Source: Candidatus Nanopelagicus limnes
GTDB lineage: Bacteria; Actinomycetota; Actinomycetes; Nanopelagicales; Nanopelagicaceae
NCBI RefSeq assembly: GCF_002287885.2
Contig: NZ_CP016768.2
Span: forward strand, 868,001 to 932,000
DNA length: 64,000 nt
Reading direction: 5' to 3'
The translations under genes and the position numbers were made by a program. Numbering within the stretch: the first letter of the stretch is position 1; every line of letters starts with the position of its first letter. Below are positions 46,582-55,147 of the stretch, piece after piece. The notes beneath the pieces are model-generated. The model saw only the letters and a program-made list of their open reading frames with translations. It did no database searches and was not told where the DNA came from.

Positions 46582-47574
46582 TTAGAGTTCAATTCGATTC
46601 ACTAAGCCAGACTCCTCAAGTGCGTCCCACACAGCAGCTGGAATATCACGATCAAAGTCGGCAATATTTGAAGTTAACTCTTTAACTGTTCTAGATCCAG
46701 TTAGCACTGAGGTGACAGCAGGATGGCGAAGTGGGAATTGAATAGCTGCTGCAGTAAGTGGAATGTGAAAATCACCAAGCAGTTGCTTGATTTGTTGCGC
46801 GCGTTTAATTAATTCATCACTTGCAGGTGCATAATCAAATGTTGCACCGGCAACTGGGTTTGCCAAAATTCCTGAGTTATAAACACCACCAATTACTACT
46901 GCGGTATTTTTCTTTTTACACTCTTTAAATAAGTGTTCTTGGGCTGATTGATCAAGGAGTGAGAATCTGCCAGCAATTAAAATAATATCTAGATCCATCT
47001 CTTTAACTGCCTTAATAGATGGTGCGCAGTAATTCATACCGACACCAATTCCTTTTAAAACACCCTGGGAGCGAAGTTCATCTAGAACTCCATAAGACTT
47101 CTCGATTGCTTCACCAATTCGATCATCAGCATCATGAATATAGGCAATGTCAAAGGAAGAAACATTTAAACGCTTTAGGCTATCTTCGATTGAGCGAAGA
47201 ATTCCATCCCGTGAAAAGTCAAAAACTGGAATTACATTTGGATCAATATCGGCAAAGCTACCTAGTGAATCATCAATTACTTTTTTGTTTGGATCAATTT
47301 TTTCAAGTACGCGCCCAACCTTGGTTGAGAGCACAAATGGTTTTCCTGATTTATTTAAGGCAGCGCCTAATCTTTTTTCAGCAATTCCATAGCCATATAA
47401 AGGTGCGGTATCGAAGTAATTAATTCCGGCATCTACTGCTGCCAAAATTGTTGACTCCGCTTCAGAGTCGGCAACAGAAGTAAATAAGCCACCAAGGGGC
47501 GCGGTTCCTAGCGCAAGCTTTGTTACGTAACGATCTATGCGTGAAATTTTTACTAATTCGCTATGACGGGCCAT
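46582..47574 (-). CDS. Aldo-keto reductase, probable L-fucose (D-threo-aldose) 1-dehydrogenase
   Basis: About 330 residues. The AKR catalytic residues are Asp55 and Tyr60 in YFDTAPLYGYG with Lys in STKVGR and His in IHDADDR. Sequence order TKLALGTAPLGGLF, GIGVGMNY and TAAAIQFPLRHPAV matches D-threo-aldose 1-dehydrogenases, which oxidise L-fucose to L-fuconolactone. ATG 47574 is preferred to GTG 47580 because TATACT (47589-47584) ends 10 nt before it, as for a leaderless mRNA. It heads the operon with the FAH-type hydrolase and the hydroxyacid dehydrogenase. Confidence 0.87.
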   Translation of the reverse strand: MARHSELVKISRIDRYVTKLALGTAPLGGLFTSVADSEAESTILAAVDAGINYFDTAPLYGYGIAEKRLGAALNKSGKPFVLSTKVGRVLEKIDPNKKVIDDSLGSFADIDPNVIPVFDFSRDGILRSIEDSLKRLNVSSFDIAYIHDADDRIGEAIEKSYGVLDELRSQGVLKGIGVGMNYCAPSIKAVKEMDLDIILIAGRFSLLDQSAQEHLFKECKKKNTAVVIGGVYNSGILANPVAGATFDYAPASDELIKRAQQIKQLLGDFHIPLTAAAIQFPLRHPAVTSVLTGSRTVKELTSNIADFDRDIPAAVWDALEESGLVNRIEL

Positions 47575-47652: not shown

Positions 47653-48405
47653 ATGGAAAAAGAGTTTGCAGGCTTAACCGCAATTATCACCGGAGCCGGC
47701 TCTGGTATTGGCCTTGAGGTTGCAAAGGGACTTAAAGAGCGAGGCGCAACTGTATTTGGTTTTGATATTAATCCAGGTGAAATGGCAGCCTATGCAACAT
47801 ATGTAAAGTGCGATATTGGTGATGCCACCTCAGTTGAATCAGCTTTTAATGAGTTTAAGAAATCAAGTAAAGGTTTAGATATCTTAATTAACAATGCTGG
47901 AATTGGTTCGCTAACAACAGTTGAGCATGAAACAGATGAGATTTGGCATAAAGTTTTAAACATCAATGTGGTGGGAACAGCTCGAGTATCCAAGCAAGCG
48001 ATTCCGCTACTTCGTGCCAGTAAGCATGCAGCCATTGTTAATACCGCATCAATTGCTGCCACAGATGGAATTCCAAATCGCGCAGCTTATAGTGCGTCAA
48101 AGGGTGCGGTTATGACTTTAACTCTTGCAATGGCAACTGATCACTTAGCCGATGGCATTCGGGTTAACGCCGTAAACCCAGCAACAACTGATACACCTTG
48201 GGTTAAGCGATTGTTAGATCAATCAGAGGATGCGCAAGCTGCTCGAGTTGCACTAGAGGCGCGGCAGCCAATGGGACGACTTGTCTCCCCTACTGAAATT
48301 GCTAGCGCGATTATATTTTTAGCGAGCCCCTTGCAAGCATCAGTTACTGGCACCGCAATCAGTATTGATGGCGGTATGCACTCATTGAGAATTCCTAAAA
48401 AATGA
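47653..48405 (+). CDS. SDR dehydrogenase, probable 2-keto-3-deoxy-L-fuconate 4-dehydrogenase
   Basis: About 250 residues. GAGSGIG, INNAGIG, VNTASIAA and YSASKGA are the SDR motifs; FDIN ends strand two (NAD). The C-terminal end with VTGTAISIDGG is classical. The frame reaches back to 47563, but ATG 47653 begins at the first strand. Divergent pairing with the L-fucose dehydrogenase candidate makes it the best of four SDRs in the island for oxidising 2-keto-3-deoxy-L-fuconate at C4; this is inference. It overlaps the next gene by 4 nt. Confidence 0.85.
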   Translation: MEKEFAGLTAIITGAGSGIGLEVAKGLKERGATVFGFDINPGEMAAYATYVKCDIGDATSVESAFNEFKKSSKGLDILINNAGIGSLTTVEHETDEIWHKVLNINVVGTARVSKQAIPLLRASKHAAIVNTASIAATDGIPNRAAYSASKGAVMTLTLAMATDHLADGIRVNAVNPATTDTPWVKRLLDQSEDAQAARVALEARQPMGRLVSPTEIASAIIFLASPLQASVTGTAISIDGGMHSLRIPKK

Positions 48406-48647
48406 ATCCATTAAACAATTATCGGTTTGGCTCTTATGCAATCTTGGCGATGGGCTTGATTAATCTGCGATATCAAACTGGAAATGATTCAAATCTTTCT
48501 AAAAGTTTAGTTTTAATAATCCTTGGCGCAGTGGCATTTATTGCAACATTTATCCCAGCACTTAAAGCACTTTTGCTCAAGCGAGTGAGCAAAATGCTCG
48601 CACTTATCATTCTCGTCTTGGCAATTGCATATGGATTTCTAATCTAA
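48402..48647 (+). CDS. Small membrane protein of unknown function
   Basis: 81 residues with two clear hydrophobic helices (about 34-54 and 62-80) and a weaker one near 11-25, joined by short basic loops (LLLKRVSK). No family recognised. The start overlaps the SDR stop as ATGA, so it is translated from the same mRNA; the gene after it begins 4 nt downstream. Confidence 0.6.
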   Translation: MNPLNNYRFGSYAILAMGLINLRYQTGNDSNLSKSLVLIILGAVAFIATFIPALKALLLKRVSKMLALIILVLAIAYGFLI

Positions 48648-48651
48648 TTAA

Positions 48652-48912
48652 ATGCAACTTGAGGATATTAAAAACCGCTGGAATGAGGTCTTAGATCTCC
48701 TTTTGGAGATGGATCGAGTTACCTGGCTTTCATTCTTTGATGCCAGATTGGTTTCATTTGAAAACAACCAATTAACCTTAGATTTTGCTGATAGTCAAAA
48801 GTTTGCAAACCCCCATGATTTTAAGAAAACTCGTAATCCATCCCACACTAAATCTTTAATTGAAGCGATTGAAAGGGTTTTTGGCTTTACACCCACAATA
48901 ATAGAGCGGTGA
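48652..48912 (+). CDS. Free-standing domain resembling the DnaX (gamma/tau) C-terminal domain
   Basis: 86 residues. The pattern RWNEVLDLLLEMDRVTWLSFF, then a strand with ARLVSF, NNQLTLDF and FANPHDF, and a final helix with SLIEAIERVFG, is the order found after the AAA+ module of actinobacterial DNA polymerase III gamma/tau. I see no ATPase part here. A role in DNA replication is only a suggestion; the domain may have been reused. It lies between a membrane protein and a secreted muramidase and overlaps the latter by 4 nt. Confidence 0.5.
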   Translation: MQLEDIKNRWNEVLDLLLEMDRVTWLSFFDARLVSFENNQLTLDFADSQKFANPHDFKKTRNPSHTKSLIEAIERVFGFTPTIIER

Positions 48913-50531
48913 AAAGAGTTGCATTCTTCCTAGCTCTAGTCGTAATTGCTACTGGCTTTAATCCGGCTGCAAACAGTGCAACTGCAAAAACATCTCTAAC
49001 ATTAAAAGTTGAGAGCACGCCAAATGCTGGTGAATCTTTAGTTACCTTTTATGGTCAGGTGAAGCCGGCGGCAAAAGGTGCAATCACTATTGATACCTTT
49101 GATGGTGTGGCGTGGAAGGCGACGCCATTAAAAACTACATCAGCAGCAAGTGGAGCTTGGCGAATTACAACAGTTGCCACTGCGATTAAGGCAGAAGGTC
49201 AATACCGTGCTCAAGTAGTCATCGGTAAAAAGAAAACACTTTCTAAGAATGCAAACTTTAAAGTTGATTTAACAAAAACCTTTGCCACAACGGATGATTT
49301 ATTTATTCCAACTGAGACTGGCAAATTAACTGGCGGGCGTATTCAAGGATCAGATATCAGCCGCTGGCAGCACCCAAATGATCAACCAATTGATTTTAAG
49401 CAGATGTTTGATGCTGGGATGCGATTTGTATTAATTAAAGGATCAGACGCCCAAGAAAAGGCAGATCTTGAAACCATGCGATGGTTGGTTGGAGATCGAA
49501 GTGCGGCACAAGCTGCGGGACTTTATACCGGTATGTATCACTTTGCTTACATGCCAAATAGCACCGATGAGGCATATGTGATTCGCGATGCTAAAGCACA
49601 AGCCCAAAAAGTTTTATGGCGCCTTGCCTCCCTTGGTGGTTATAACGAACGTGATCTACCAGTTGCACTCGATTTAGAAAATAGTTGTGTTAAGAAAAAC
49701 TCTTCAGGTGATTGTATTAAAACTTTGCCAAGGAGCTTGGTCACTTTATGGGCTGAAACTTGGTTAGAAACTGTTGAAGAAAAAACAGGTAGAAAACCAT
49801 TTTTATACTCCTACGCACAATTCTTAGAGGGTGCAATGGAGCGCAGTGAAAAACTTAGGCAGTACCCACTTTGGTTAGCCCATTATGGAATTCATCCAGC
49901 AGATCCAATTTCAAAACCAGGGCAGCGAGCAACAATCGGTTGCTTTGTGCACTCATGGAGTACAGCCAACTGCTCATCCCAGTGGCAAATCTGGCAGTAC
50001 TCATCTTGTGGAATTGGTAAAAAATACGGCGTACCAAGTGCTCGTCTTGATTTAAATGTTTTTAGAGGCACACCAGAAACTTTCCTTTCCTTAATAAAGG
50101 GTAAGTGGCAGCCAGAGCAGGTTGATCTCATGCCAGTTAATGAGCCGACTAAGTTGAATTTAATCTCAGTTACAACAACTGATACCAATAAGCCTGTATT
50201 TATAAATGTTGAGGTTTTCAGGTCAATTGGCACACCAGTTGTAACCGGTACGGTTGTATTTAGACCAACTGATCCTAAAATTAAAATCAAAAAACAAACC
50301 CCAGAGCGAAATGCCAGCGGCCGGTGGGAAATAAAGATTGAAGGTCTGCCCGCAGGTGCTACCGCTGGAACTTTGAATTATGTAGATATCTCAAAAACTC
50401 ATGCTGATAATGAGATGCCATTAATTATCAATTTAGCGCAGGGACCGGATTTACCTACGGTAACTCCAACACCTAAGCCAACAATCACAAAAAAACCAAC
50501 AGATGGCTGCGCTAAACAAATAAAGCACTAA
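48909..50531 (+). CDS. Secreted GH25 muramidase (lysozyme)
   Basis: 540 residues. A signal peptide (about 1-24) leads to an Ig-like beta domain (about 28-115), the GH25 barrel (about 145-395) and a second beta domain ending in a Pro/Thr-rich tail. GH25 landmarks are GSDISRWQHP with the first catalytic Asp, FVLIKGSD, and LPVALDLENSC with the Asp-x-Glu pair; WQIWQYSSCG closes the barrel. It cleaves the glycan strands of peptidoglycan outside the cell. The start is GTG at 48909, overlapping the preceding stop (GTGA). Confidence 0.9.
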   Translation: MKRVAFFLALVVIATGFNPAANSATAKTSLTLKVESTPNAGESLVTFYGQVKPAAKGAITIDTFDGVAWKATPLKTTSAASGAWRITTVATAIKAEGQYRAQVVIGKKKTLSKNANFKVDLTKTFATTDDLFIPTETGKLTGGRIQGSDISRWQHPNDQPIDFKQMFDAGMRFVLIKGSDAQEKADLETMRWLVGDRSAAQAAGLYTGMYHFAYMPNSTDEAYVIRDAKAQAQKVLWRLASLGGYNERDLPVALDLENSCVKKNSSGDCIKTLPRSLVTLWAETWLETVEEKTGRKPFLYSYAQFLEGAMERSEKLRQYPLWLAHYGIHPADPISKPGQRATIGCFVHSWSTANCSSQWQIWQYSSCGIGKKYGVPSARLDLNVFRGTPETFLSLIKGKWQPEQVDLMPVNEPTKLNLISVTTTDTNKPVFINVEVFRSIGTPVVTGTVVFRPTDPKIKIKKQTPERNASGRWEIKIEGLPAGATAGTLNYVDISKTHADNEMPLIINLAQGPDLPTVTPTPKPTITKKPTDGCAKQIKH

Positions 50532-50555: not shown

Positions 50556-51662
50556 ATGGCCAAAGGATTATCGGGTGGAGTATTCCGATCTGATTTGCAA
50601 TTAGCAGATGGCCGGCAAATCTCTTACTACGATAGCAAAGAAGTAACACGTACTGCAGTAGACAAAAGAGATGATAAAGCTCAACCTGGCATTGGACACT
50701 TACGTCTTGATCCACTGGTAAATGAGTGGATTGCAGTTGCCTCTCATCGCCAACACCGAGTTTTTCTGCCACCAAAAGAATTATGCCCACTTTGCCCAAC
50801 TGTTGATAGTAAATTAACTGAGGTTCCAGATAAGGATTATGAGGTTGTTGTCTTCACCAATCGTTCACCAGCGCTAACCACCCCAAGTAGTAATTGGAAA
50901 CTTCCGCAAATTTCTGGTCTTGATACCCCAAACGCTGATGCAGCAGGTGCTTGTGAAGTTGTTTGCTACACCCAAGATCATGGATCTAGCTTTGCAAAAT
51001 TAAGTACAAAACAAATTAGAACTGTGTTGGAAGCCTGGAAAGATCGTGATTCAGCCCTTTCTAAACTTTCATTCGTTGAGCATGTATTTCCCTTTGAAAA
51101 TCGCGGCGAAGAGGTTGGCGTAACCCTGTCTCACCCACATGGACAGATTTATGCTTACTCATTCCTGCCACCACGAATTGAAAAGATGTTAGAAGCTGCA
51201 AAATCACACCTAGCTAAAACTGGCAGAGTATTACTTGATGATGTGATTGCCCGTGAGGTTAAGGACAAAAAGCGAATCATTTGTGAGAATCCTGAGTGGA
51301 TTGCATTTGTGCCATATGCGGCTAGATATCCATTTGAAATTCACATTGCCCCTAAGCGCACAGTTGCTGCCATGGCGGATTTAGATGAAAAACAATCTGA
51401 TTTATTTGCACCAATCGCTAAAGAGGCTTTAACTAGATTAGATGGCGTGTTTGGAATTGAAATGGCATATATCGCCTCTTGGTATCAAGCCCCAGTAAAT
51501 ATTGGTCGAGATTGCATGCGTTTGCACTGGCAGATAGTTTCTGTAAGACGCCAACCTGGAAAGTTAAAGTATTTATCTGGTTCAGAATCTGCAATGGGTG
51601 CTTTTATAATGGATTTAGAGCCTGAACAATCTGCAAAACAATTACAAGAAGTTAAGTATTAA
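50556..51662 (+). CDS. galT: Galactose-1-phosphate uridylyltransferase
   Basis: 368 residues. The HPHGQ motif is at 193-197 with nucleophile His195, preceded by VEHVFPFENRGEEVGV; zinc ligands are Cys77 and Cys80 in CPLCP plus a later His. It exchanges galactose 1-phosphate for glucose 1-phosphate on UDP (Leloir pathway). No galK or galE lies in the window. Its last 4 bases overlap the stop of the convergent ACT gene. Confidence 0.95.
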   Translation: MAKGLSGGVFRSDLQLADGRQISYYDSKEVTRTAVDKRDDKAQPGIGHLRLDPLVNEWIAVASHRQHRVFLPPKELCPLCPTVDSKLTEVPDKDYEVVVFTNRSPALTTPSSNWKLPQISGLDTPNADAAGACEVVCYTQDHGSSFAKLSTKQIRTVLEAWKDRDSALSKLSFVEHVFPFENRGEEVGVTLSHPHGQIYAYSFLPPRIEKMLEAAKSHLAKTGRVLLDDVIAREVKDKKRIICENPEWIAFVPYAARYPFEIHIAPKRTVAAMADLDEKQSDLFAPIAKEALTRLDGVFGIEMAYIASWYQAPVNIGRDCMRLHWQIVSVRRQPGKLKYLSGSESAMGAFIMDLEPEQSAKQLQEVKY

Positions 51663-52058: not shown

Positions 52059-53867
52059 TTAACTCTCCCCTAATGCTAATTCTTTTTGCACCCGGCGGGC
52101 TGCCTCCATGCCAACTAATTGACCAAAGATCTCTTGATACTGCGCATCATTTTCCACCGGATTTAATCTTTGCAAAGTTGATTTAATCTCAGCGATTGAT
52201 CTGCTTAATGCAACCTCGCGCAAGCGAGCAAAGATACTGGTGATGTAGCGATCTGAAACCTCACCATCAGTTCGGATTGGTTCAACTGTTAACTCAGTAA
52301 TCAAAGATTTAAGCTCTTCACTTTCAGCCTTATCAATTAACTCTTGAATATTAAACTCTGCTTGATTATCAATACCAGCGCGTAATTGATTATAAAGAGG
52401 GAATGAGAAGGCGGTTGGCTCAAGATCTACCCAGCTATGAGAAAGTGTTGGCAGTTGCAGGCGAACCTTTAGAACTTCACGCTCTAATACTAAAACTGGA
52501 TCTGTTAAATTGATTCGTTTATCACTTGTTGCTGAATTAGCACCACCGCTTCGCTTTACTGCAGTTGAAACAATATCTACCTCCATGCCAAGCCAGCCGG
52601 CAAGTAAGCGAACATACTCTGGGCGAAGGGATGCGTCTCGAATTTTTCCAATTAATGGCGCAACCAGATTTAACGCATTAACTCTGCCTTCAGCAGCTGT
52701 GATGTCATAGTTTGCAATCACGGATTTAATTGCGAACTCAAATAAAGGAACTCGCCTTGCAACTAAATTACGAACGGCGTCATCGCCATGGGCTTGGCGT
52801 AACTCGCAAGGATCCATACCATTTGGTTCAACTGCCACAAATGTTTGGGCAACAAACTTTTGATCATCTTCAAATGCACGAAGCGCTGCTTTTTGCCCCG
52901 CAGCATCACCATCAAAGGTAAAGATAACCTCACCTCTAAATGCGTCGGCGTCCATTAATAATCTTCTAATTATTCTTATGTGCTCATCACCAAAGGCGGT
53001 GCCACAGGTTGCAACTGCAGTTGTTACCCCAGCTAAATGGGCAGCCATTACATCGGTATAGCCTTCAACAATTACAACTTGTCGATTTTTTGCAATTTCT
53101 TTCTTAGCCATATCTAAGCCGTACAAAATCTGATTCTTTTTATAAACTGGAGTTTCAGGTGAGTTTAAGTACTTTGGCCCAGTATCTACCTCATCACTTG
53201 CTAACTTTCTTGCACCAAATCCGACCACATCACCAGAAATATCTTTAACTGGCCAAATTAATCGATTTCGATATCGATCAATCATTCCCTTGGTGCCTTC
53301 TTTAACTAAACCAGCCAGATTTAACTCTTCATCAGTAAAACCTTTTCCTTTAAGGTTTTTATAAAGCCCATCCCATTCATCCGGTGCGTAACCAACATTA
53401 AAGTTTTTTGCCGCATCTCGATCAAAGCCACGTTTAGTTAAGAAATCTCGGCCATGTTGAGCTGCTGGAAGTTGTAATTGTTCCTGATAAAAAAGTGAGG
53501 CTGCTGTGTTTGCAGCAACTAATCGTGAGCGATTAATTGATGGACCAGTACTAACTCCACCTGATTCATAACGAAGTGTGTAGCCAATTCGATCAGCTAA
53601 GCGCTCTACCGTCTCCATAAATGTTAAATGCTCTAACTTCATAATAAATGCAATTACATCCCCACCAACTTGGCAACCAAAGCAGTGAAAAAATCCTTTG
53701 CTAGGTGTCACATGAAAGGAGGGACTCTTCTCATCATGAAATGGACACAGACCTTTTTTCTGACCACCACCAGCATTTTTTAGCTGCACATAATCACCAA
53801 CTACATCATCTATCGGTGAGTGATCGCGGATGTATGTAACATCCTCATCTTTAATACGTCCGGCCAT
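52059..53867 (-). CDS. dnaG: DNA primase
   Basis: 602 residues. The zinc ribbon is Cys41, His44, Cys62, Cys65 (CPFH and CFGC); the RNA polymerase domain shows GYAPDEWDGLYK and GFGARKL; the Toprim part has VIVEGYTDVMAAHLAG and FTFDGDAAGQKAA; a DnaB-interaction domain closes the chain (about 450-600). It makes RNA primers at the replication fork. dgt lies 35 nt upstream on the same strand, the usual actinobacterial dgt-dnaG order. Confidence 0.97.
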   Translation of the reverse strand: MAGRIKDEDVTYIRDHSPIDDVVGDYVQLKNAGGGQKKGLCPFHDEKSPSFHVTPSKGFFHCFGCQVGGDVIAFIMKLEHLTFMETVERLADRIGYTLRYESGGVSTGPSINRSRLVAANTAASLFYQEQLQLPAAQHGRDFLTKRGFDRDAAKNFNVGYAPDEWDGLYKNLKGKGFTDEELNLAGLVKEGTKGMIDRYRNRLIWPVKDISGDVVGFGARKLASDEVDTGPKYLNSPETPVYKKNQILYGLDMAKKEIAKNRQVVIVEGYTDVMAAHLAGVTTAVATCGTAFGDEHIRIIRRLLMDADAFRGEVIFTFDGDAAGQKAALRAFEDDQKFVAQTFVAVEPNGMDPCELRQAHGDDAVRNLVARRVPLFEFAIKSVIANYDITAAEGRVNALNLVAPLIGKIRDASLRPEYVRLLAGWLGMEVDIVSTAVKRSGGANSATSDKRINLTDPVLVLEREVLKVRLQLPTLSHSWVDLEPTAFSFPLYNQLRAGIDNQAEFNIQELIDKAESEELKSLITELTVEPIRTDGEVSDRYITSIFARLREVALSRSIAEIKSTLQRLNPVENDAQYQEIFGQLVGMEAARRVQKELALGES

Positions 53868-53902
53868 ACTTCCTATCCTAGTTTCAAAGTGGACAACTTA
53901 AA

Positions 53903-55147
53903 TTATCCCTTGTTAATAAGGCGATTATGCAGTGCAACTGCGCCCGGATCAGTTAAAGATGCCACCTGATCAATTACTACGCGAAGGCGAGCTTGATCAG
54001 TTTGAGCATTTTGCCAATCCTGTAGGAAGAAACTTTCTAAGGTATTTGGGGCGCTCTCAAGTATTGCCTGCACCAATTCAGTTAGCAGTCTTTGTTGCTC
54101 GGCATATCTAATCTGAGAATCACTGGCGTTTATTACATAATGCCCAGCCATTGATTTAAGTAATGCCACCTCAACTCGTTGCGCCCTAGGCACAACTAAA
54201 TTTGCGTTATATCTAGTTAAATCACCATCGCCATACTTCTCTTGAGTTGCAACCTCAGCAGCCTGGGCAAAGCGGCCAATTAACTGGCTGGCTAAATCCT
54301 TTAATCTAGCTAGTGAGCGATGAGTACCATCGTAATATCGAGGCCAGCAAGATAGCTTCTGCAAAGCATCCAATGCTGATTGCATTTCACTTTCAGTGAT
54401 ATCAGCTAAATACATCTCTTGAGCAACTTTGAATAACTTAGGCAGATCACTACTTAATTGATCTAATTTAACTTGACCAGAAACTAATGAATCCTCTAAA
54501 TCATGAACGCTGTAGGCAACATCATCAGACCAATCCATAATCTGCGCCTCCATGGAGGTCTTGCCAGATTCCACGCCACTTCGATACCAATTAAAAATCT
54601 CTAGATCATCCTCATAGACGCCAAACTTTCTAGCATTCACCGCCCGACTCCATGGATATTTTGTGGCAGCATCAAGGGAGGCTCTAGTTAAATTCAAACC
54701 AATTGATTTGCCGTCAGGTAATACTGTTTTTGCCTCTAATCTAATTAATAATCTAATACTTTGCGCATTTCCTTCAAAGCCACCGCAGGATGAAGCAATT
54801 TGATTTAACGCCTCCTCCCCATTGTGACCAAATGGTGGATGACCAATGTCATGAGCAAGACAAGCACCCTCCATTAAATCTGGATCCGCACCGAGGGCAG
54901 CTCCTAATTCTCGACCAACTTGCGCGCACTCAAGTGAATGTGAAAGTCGAGTTCTTGGAAAATCTGTTGCCCAAGGAACTGCTACTTGAGTTTTAGCAGC
55001 TAAGCGGCGAAGTGCGAAGGAGTGAATAATTCTTGCGCGATCTCTTGCAAACTCAGTACGACCACCACGTTTTGCAGGTTCATCTAAAAATCTTGCGCGA
55101 TCAAACTCAGAGTATCCGGGATGCTCATTAGCTGCTCTGATAACCAT
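53903..55147 (-). CDS. dgt: Deoxyguanosinetriphosphate triphosphohydrolase-like HD protein
   Basis: 414 residues. The HD metal site is complete: RTRLSHSLE (His70), HDIGHPPFGH (His99, Asp100) and WSDDVAYSVHD later. Members remove triphosphate from dNTPs and so tune nucleotide pools. The N-terminal RTEFARDRARIIHSFALRRL is typical of the bacterial branch. It precedes dnaG, consistent with a joint role in DNA synthesis and repair. Confidence 0.92.
   Translation of the reverse strand: MVIRAANEHPGYSEFDRARFLDEPAKRGGRTEFARDRARIIHSFALRRLAAKTQVAVPWATDFPRTRLSHSLECAQVGRELGAALGADPDLMEGACLAHDIGHPPFGHNGEEALNQIASSCGGFEGNAQSIRLLIRLEAKTVLPDGKSIGLNLTRASLDAATKYPWSRAVNARKFGVYEDDLEIFNWYRSGVESGKTSMEAQIMDWSDDVAYSVHDLEDSLVSGQVKLDQLSSDLPKLFKVAQEMYLADITESEMQSALDALQKLSCWPRYYDGTHRSLARLKDLASQLIGRFAQAAEVATQEKYGDGDLTRYNANLVVPRAQRVEVALLKSMAGHYVINASDSQIRYAEQQRLLTELVQAILESAPNTLESFFLQDWQNAQTDQARLRVVIDQVASLTDPGAVALHNRLINKG

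Follow-up and report, generated by a model that had tools for sequence, protein, structure and literature searches.

The window, the whole 64,000-nucleotide stretch of DNA analysed here, comes from the genome of Candidatus Nanopelagicus limnes, which is a single contig of 1,238,108 bases. The genes and features of interest are the following:

47653..48405, + strand: short-chain dehydrogenase (SDR), the likely operon head; Pfam adh_short_C2, E 4.7e-55
48402..48647, + strand: TM81, a small membrane protein of 81 amino acids; no Pfam family above cut-off
48652..48912, + strand: SOLO, a stand-alone DnaX_C-like protein of 86 amino acids; open reading frame from ATG to TGA, with family and profile searches and purifying selection as evidence
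48909..48912, + strand: GTGA, the 4-nt overlap of the SOLO stop codon and the GTG start of the GH25 gene, read from the sequence
48909..50531, + strand: GH25 muramidase-like protein with a signal-like N-terminus; Pfam PF01183, E 2.5e-25, signal read by eye
50556..51662, + strand: galactose-1-phosphate uridylyltransferase (galT); Pfam GalP_UDP_transf, E 4.6e-28

The SDR start at 47653 is our choice; the open reading frame as listed starts at 47563. The sequence places a 4-nt overlap between SDR and TM81 (48402-48405), a 4-nt gap between TM81 and SOLO (48648-48651) and 24 nt between GH25 and galT. The GH25 neighbour scores 90.3 bits against the Pfam family Glyco_hydro_25 (cut-off 27), and the open reading frames and Pfam confirm the gene order given in a preliminary description of this DNA, which had SOLO between a membrane protein and a GH25 enzyme. 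These genes, SDR, TM81, SOLO, GH25 and galT, all on the + strand, likely form one operon. The preliminary description had also called SOLO and its two neighbours translationally coupled; the 4-nt overlaps and gap make this plausible, and the SOLO/GH25 overlap is seen in relatives too. A promoter and terminator scan found no more sites than in shuffled sequences.

We searched 37 genomes of its family and found SOLO in 33 of them, each time as a single match. Its median dN/dS is 0.16, with a maximum of 0.30 (computed over the genus pairs with dS < 1.5, 166 of 190). Because dN/dS is low and relatives occur throughout most of the family, we conclude that SOLO is a real gene under purifying selection.

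When searched alone, the SOLO protein of the window matched nothing in Pfam, DnaX_C included, and gave weak matches to NCBIfam gamma/tau models (E 0.019), located behind the ATPase part. Its relatives gave clearer results. At a limit of E 0.1, NF005848 was matched by 76 of 80 aligned SOLO proteins (best E 3.8e-8) and Pfam DnaX_C (PF20964) by 47 of the 80 (best E 5.6e-4); at the same loose limit, unrelated families matched at most 8 of the 80. These 80 named loci are the best 80 of 154 found by a pattern spanning residues 22-30 and therefore lean to near relatives. The profile comparison that the preliminary description had proposed, made with hhalign against 30 DnaX C-terminal domains, gave a probability of 99.0% (E 2.7e-18, 76 columns). 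As a control, a profile of 17 DnaA domain I sequences of relatives gave a probability of 0.9%. By computation, these comparisons show SOLO to be homologous to the globular domain at the C-terminus of DnaX (tau), Pfam DnaX_C, in agreement with the preliminary description. The homology to this domain (PF20964, and the part of the NCBIfam PRK07764 models that follows the ATPase) covers almost all of SOLO. The protein consists of this domain only, with neither AAA+ ATPase nor domain III ahead of it, which agrees with the earlier statement that it has no ATPase. One apparent fusion of SOLO to another protein (a 536-aa frame in G319) was rejected, as by eye SOLO lies there at the end of a stop-poor, GC-rich frame.

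The same profile finds its counterpart in DnaX itself. We collected 73 dnaX regions, which represent 72 distinct genes (L055 and L201 are one gene) and take in all 42 non-SOLO matches of a class-wide search. All of them hold a dnaX open reading frame. The best SOLO-profile match, even if weak, lies C-terminal to the ATPase in 72 of the 73, and 67 reach a score of at least 8 bits; the one that does not fit, L199, is truncated. The C-terminus of DnaX in this class carries a short motif around LG[AG]..I, present in 63 of the 72 distinct proteins according to our own pattern for the last 45 residues. This end motif was found in 0 of 107 SOLO open reading frames, each read to its stop (these are distinct loci; L171 was left out, its SOLO DNA being identical to that of L125). 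In E. coli tau, the end binds the tail of the polymerase III alpha subunit, and without DNA the globule is in contact with the fingers, as described in passages of PMC4703070, which also state that the C-terminal domains of E. coli and Taq tau are not homologous. We infer that the actinobacterial end motif corresponds to the E. coli tail that holds the polymerase. The last stretch of E. coli tau is one that attaches to the polymerase tail (same passages of PMC4703070); SOLO stops at the globule.

Where did SOLO come from? The preliminary description had offered a split or duplicated tau domain and suggested asking whether dnaX of this genome lacks the domain. It does not. The host dnaX (G000:C1:72582-74261) encodes 560 amino acids and is complete, from the ATPase and domain III to the C-terminal domain with its end motif; the Pfam scan did not report DnaX_C there, and the region is covered by an NF005848 stretch (E 2e-5). 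As the host gene retains its C-terminal domain, SOLO is not a split-off piece of dnaX. A tree built from 68 SOLO proteins and 58 DnaX domains separates the two groups by a single branch (support 100/100, and 99% of 200 bootstrap trees), though the small number of columns and a bootstrap that had not settled limit what its inner order can tell. Additionally, the host DnaX domain scores 12.6 bits against the SOLO profile, and DnaX domains of other families score up to 35.8 bits. A recent copy is unlikely, since the host DnaX scores below those of other families and the SOLO proteins group apart. We take the computed tree and scores to show that SOLO is an old paralogue of the DnaX C-terminal domain. 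The duplicated tau domain of the preliminary description therefore stands as an old paralogue and falls as a recent copy, which the tree does not support. That SOLO was split off or recently copied from the host dnaX accounts for the DnaX_C homology, but the whole gene, with its domain and end motif, and the fully supported branch leave it next to no credence.

Comparison of the two groups suggests what SOLO has kept and what it has gained. Across the 80 SOLO proteins, 24 columns reach a conservation of at least 85%. W10, R22 and W25 are common to SOLO and to 87-100% of the 58 DnaX domains. Sites N11, D15, F29, D30, A31, R32, D47, K50, H55 and R61 are 95-100% conserved in the 80 SOLO proteins and found in at most 32% of the 58 DnaX domains; H55 lies beside an insertion, and its DnaX counterpart depends on the alignment. 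Because the search pattern covers R22, W25, F29 and D30, part of the agreement at these sites in the 80 proteins stems from the selection itself. Among 27 SOLO proteins that were found without the pattern, W25, F29, D30 and D47 are present in 27 of 27, R22 and R32 in 26, K50 in 25, H55 and R61 in 24, N11 in 22, and D15 and A31 in 21. On these alignments, SOLO is a protein that retains the DnaX core and adds conserved residues of its own. It differs from DnaX in these residues, in extra residues ahead of the last helix, and in having neither ATPase nor end motif.

A search of 296 genomes of the class (E 1e-3) gave 73 matches, and SOLO was confined to three families: outside its own, it was present in four genomes of family f38 and two of family f34, and the remaining genomes of these families had dnaX matches only, or none. 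A search of 396 genomes of the phylum at E 1e-5 returned the host genome and three matches, all three of which were dnaX. The closest named record in the best 80 of 154 was Candidatus Planktophila sp. BS7, with 95% SOLO identity; further records bear the names Nanopelagicus, Nanopelagicaceae or Nanopelagicales. MAG records titled Bifidobacterium breve (L063, L067, L070, L112 and L130) carry SOLO loci with 48-77% SOLO identity; GH25 adjoins SOLO in each of them except L112, where the contig ends, and the titles look wrong. We found no relatives of SOLO in viral contigs, and phage records gave matches at E 0.9 only; a phage origin of SOLO was rejected on these grounds. The GH25 protein matches 14 phage records, many of them endolysins (24.5-29.1% identity in the ten listed), and these matches do not show descent.

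We propose, tentatively and at somewhat less than even chances, that SOLO is an old DnaX-tail paralogue that serves as a protein-binding adaptor in replication, acting in trans, and that is made together with GH25 by coupled translation. SOLO would dock on a replisome or initiation protein and modulate that partner without tethering a polymerase. We favour modulation over tethering because SOLO has no end motif, which we take to be the counterpart of the E. coli tau tail. The conserved polar residues of its own suggest that the partner or surface used may no longer be that of DnaX. The same residues also speak against a role in replication, as sites that DnaX does not keep point to a loss of the former DnaX contact.

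One reason to look beyond replication is the neighbouring gene. GH25 lies within 2.4 kb downstream of SOLO in 91 of the 107 distinct loci, and in 82 of these 91 an in-frame start codon overlaps the SOLO stop by 4 nt (we counted any in-frame ATG, GTG or TTG at that place, so the GH25 start is a possible one). Of the 37 family genomes, 33 have SOLO, and 30 of these have GH25 as well; a GH25 match was found in 31 genomes, all but one of which have SOLO. Family genomes in which SOLO was not found are G004, G015 and G021, which have no GH25 either, and G036, the only one with GH25 and no SOLO; its GH25 is an end piece, cut by the contig end on the SOLO side. Upstream of SOLO, clustering of the 107 loci gave TM81-related genes in 32, genes for LuxR-type HTH proteins in 27, permease-like genes in 8 and a divergent catalase-peroxidase-like gene in 7, and 33 fell outside the 14 largest groups; these names were assigned by eye. 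As the upstream genes are of unrelated kinds, the SOLO-GH25 pair appears to be kept while its surroundings change. This lasting association with a wall hydrolase is the one observation that bears on the cell-division-linked reuse offered as a possibility in the preliminary description. These observations are what would be expected if SOLO had left replication and served GH25 as a cytoplasmic regulator, an export helper or a translation-coupling leader. This is the main rival to an adaptor role in replication, which does not predict pairing with a hydrolase, and we consider it possible though unlikely. It must contend with SOLO genes that have no GH25. G028, G032 and G035 have SOLO and no GH25 match at E <= 1e-15. 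Additionally, 14 loci with room downstream lack GH25, six of them in the two other families; of the 16 loci without GH25, L060 and L112 end within 100 nt past SOLO, and L046 has 1180 nt of room. In f34 a gene resembling exonuclease III follows SOLO by 7 nt, in f38 a pgsA-like gene is near SOLO in 3 of 4 loci, and in one group among the loci listed SOLO is preceded by a CDGSH-type protein (all three by eye). We conclude from these other contexts that SOLO has a use of its own, and the contexts of the 14 loci likewise count against a role in replication. Conservation at the protein level also exceeds the needs of a mere leader. On the adaptor reading, too, translation of SOLO is probably coupled to that of GH25 in most of the family loci examined, such that both are made together, and this coupling may link turnover of the wall with growth or replication.

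Two details of the upstream genes deserve mention. A TM81-like protein (by eye) also stands ahead of SOLO in G032 (locus L045), a genome with no GH25 match. The LuxR-type HTH proteins (by eye, frames of about 125-260 aa) that precede SOLO in 27 loci, including L047, L050, L102 and L135, are possible regulators of the SOLO-GH25 unit.

A sequence search of solved structures with SOLO gave two chance-level matches (E 0.7 and 0.78), and its fold was approached through prediction. AlphaFold2 models were made of SOLO (pLDDT 78.7) and of a relative sharing 49% identity with it (pLDDT 81.9). Both show the same main elements, two helices followed by two strands, then a stretch of uncertain structure, a long helix and a final strand, with residues of about 51-61 poorly modelled in both. 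The helix-strand-helix pattern of the preliminary description is thus about right. For both models the closest solved structure was DnaA domain I (4TPS), with Z 8.3 (76 aligned, 2.5 Å) and Z 8.8 (78 aligned, 2.7 Å) and TM 0.66-0.70. These Z scores barely exceed the 7 to 8 that models without a true match usually reach at best. By computation, then, the predicted fold of SOLO is nearest to DnaA domain I, and a Z near 8 may reflect merely a common arrangement. We rejected descent from DnaA domain I because this top structure match has no profile similarity to SOLO (the 0.9% given above), and every SOLO-profile score shown for DnaA open reading frames is below 0 bits. Chains of the E. coli tau domain (2AYA, 5FKU and 5FKV) gave Z 4.6-5.3 and Foldseek probabilities of 0.21-0.77, in the range of other similarly arranged proteins; for the two models the domain came after DnaA at Z 4.8 (67 aligned) and Z 5.3 (68 aligned). 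A profile comparison of DnaX C-terminal domains with DnaA domain I of relatives gave a weak link (71.8%, E 3.5e-5), a hint in the sequences that the two domains may have a common origin.

Among the next structure matches were RbfA-type and ribosomal proteins (Z up to 6.6), and Foldseek gave no E-value below 0.001 for either model. These results weaken the case for a predicted adaptor in replication, and the RbfA-type and ribosomal matches would fit an RNA- or ribosome-binding protein of the arrangement that we label KH-like. We regard this as distinctly unlikely. SOLO has sequence kinship with DnaX, KH and RbfA models are absent from the NCBIfam and Pfam matches of the 80 relatives, and the protein is acidic, with a median pI of 5.2. 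Moreover, the G..G pattern, which marks RNA-binding KH loops, occurs in 4 of the 107 proteins.

A further proposal is that SOLO reads the state of the replication machinery, and that coupled translation of GH25 together with contact to the replisome would tie wall opening to chromosome replication. We hold this to be improbable. If true, it would mean a replication-to-wall link made from a recycled clamp-loader domain in small-genomed freshwater actinobacteria.

The helicase loader DciA (DUF721) invites comparison. It is a small replication protein with a part like DnaA domain I; the mycobacterial protein, a helicase partner, was modelled on the same DnaA chain, 4TPS, and DnaA domain I is responsible for many protein contacts, according to section 16 of PMC5720831. 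DciA chains matched both SOLO models at Z 4.2-5.5. The Pfam family DciA/DUF721 was matched neither by the SOLO of the window (E to 10) nor by the 80 relatives (E to 0.1). That SOLO substitutes for DciA, as the similar fold and small size might suggest, is barely credible and was ruled out, since DciA is present in the host genome (E 3.2e-21) and, among the 30 genomes searched with a completeness of 90% or more, in 29. An additional role of SOLO alongside DciA would be conceivable.

To our knowledge, the tau C-terminal domain has been described solely within the clamp loader, which holds the polymerases (PMC4703070 for E. coli). Searches of the mostly open-access literature on DnaX_C/PF20964, on stand-alone tau paralogues and on DnaX, DnaA domain I and the KH fold found no description of SOLO, and neither did those on Planktophila and Nanopelagicus dnaX and on Nanopelagicales lysozyme. 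A free-standing tau domain that lacks the end motif, is under purifying selection, occurs in most of the genomes examined from a family of lake bacteria and is usually paired with a wall hydrolase was unexpected. With SOLO, the activity of the globular half of the tau domain on its own can be tested directly, and it may be a lead on how small-genomed bacteria link growth, replication and wall.

Other replication-related genes lie in the window. Genes like dnaG and dGTPase (by eye) are found at 52059-55147 on the - strand, 1.5-4.6 kb beyond GH25, and this neighbourhood is found again in a number of relatives. At 2-2731, also on the - strand, there is a second DNA polymerase III alpha homologue, cut at the window edge (PF07733, E 1.4e-73), which we take to be probably of the DnaE2 kind; the other such homologue of the genome is at G000:C1:533410.
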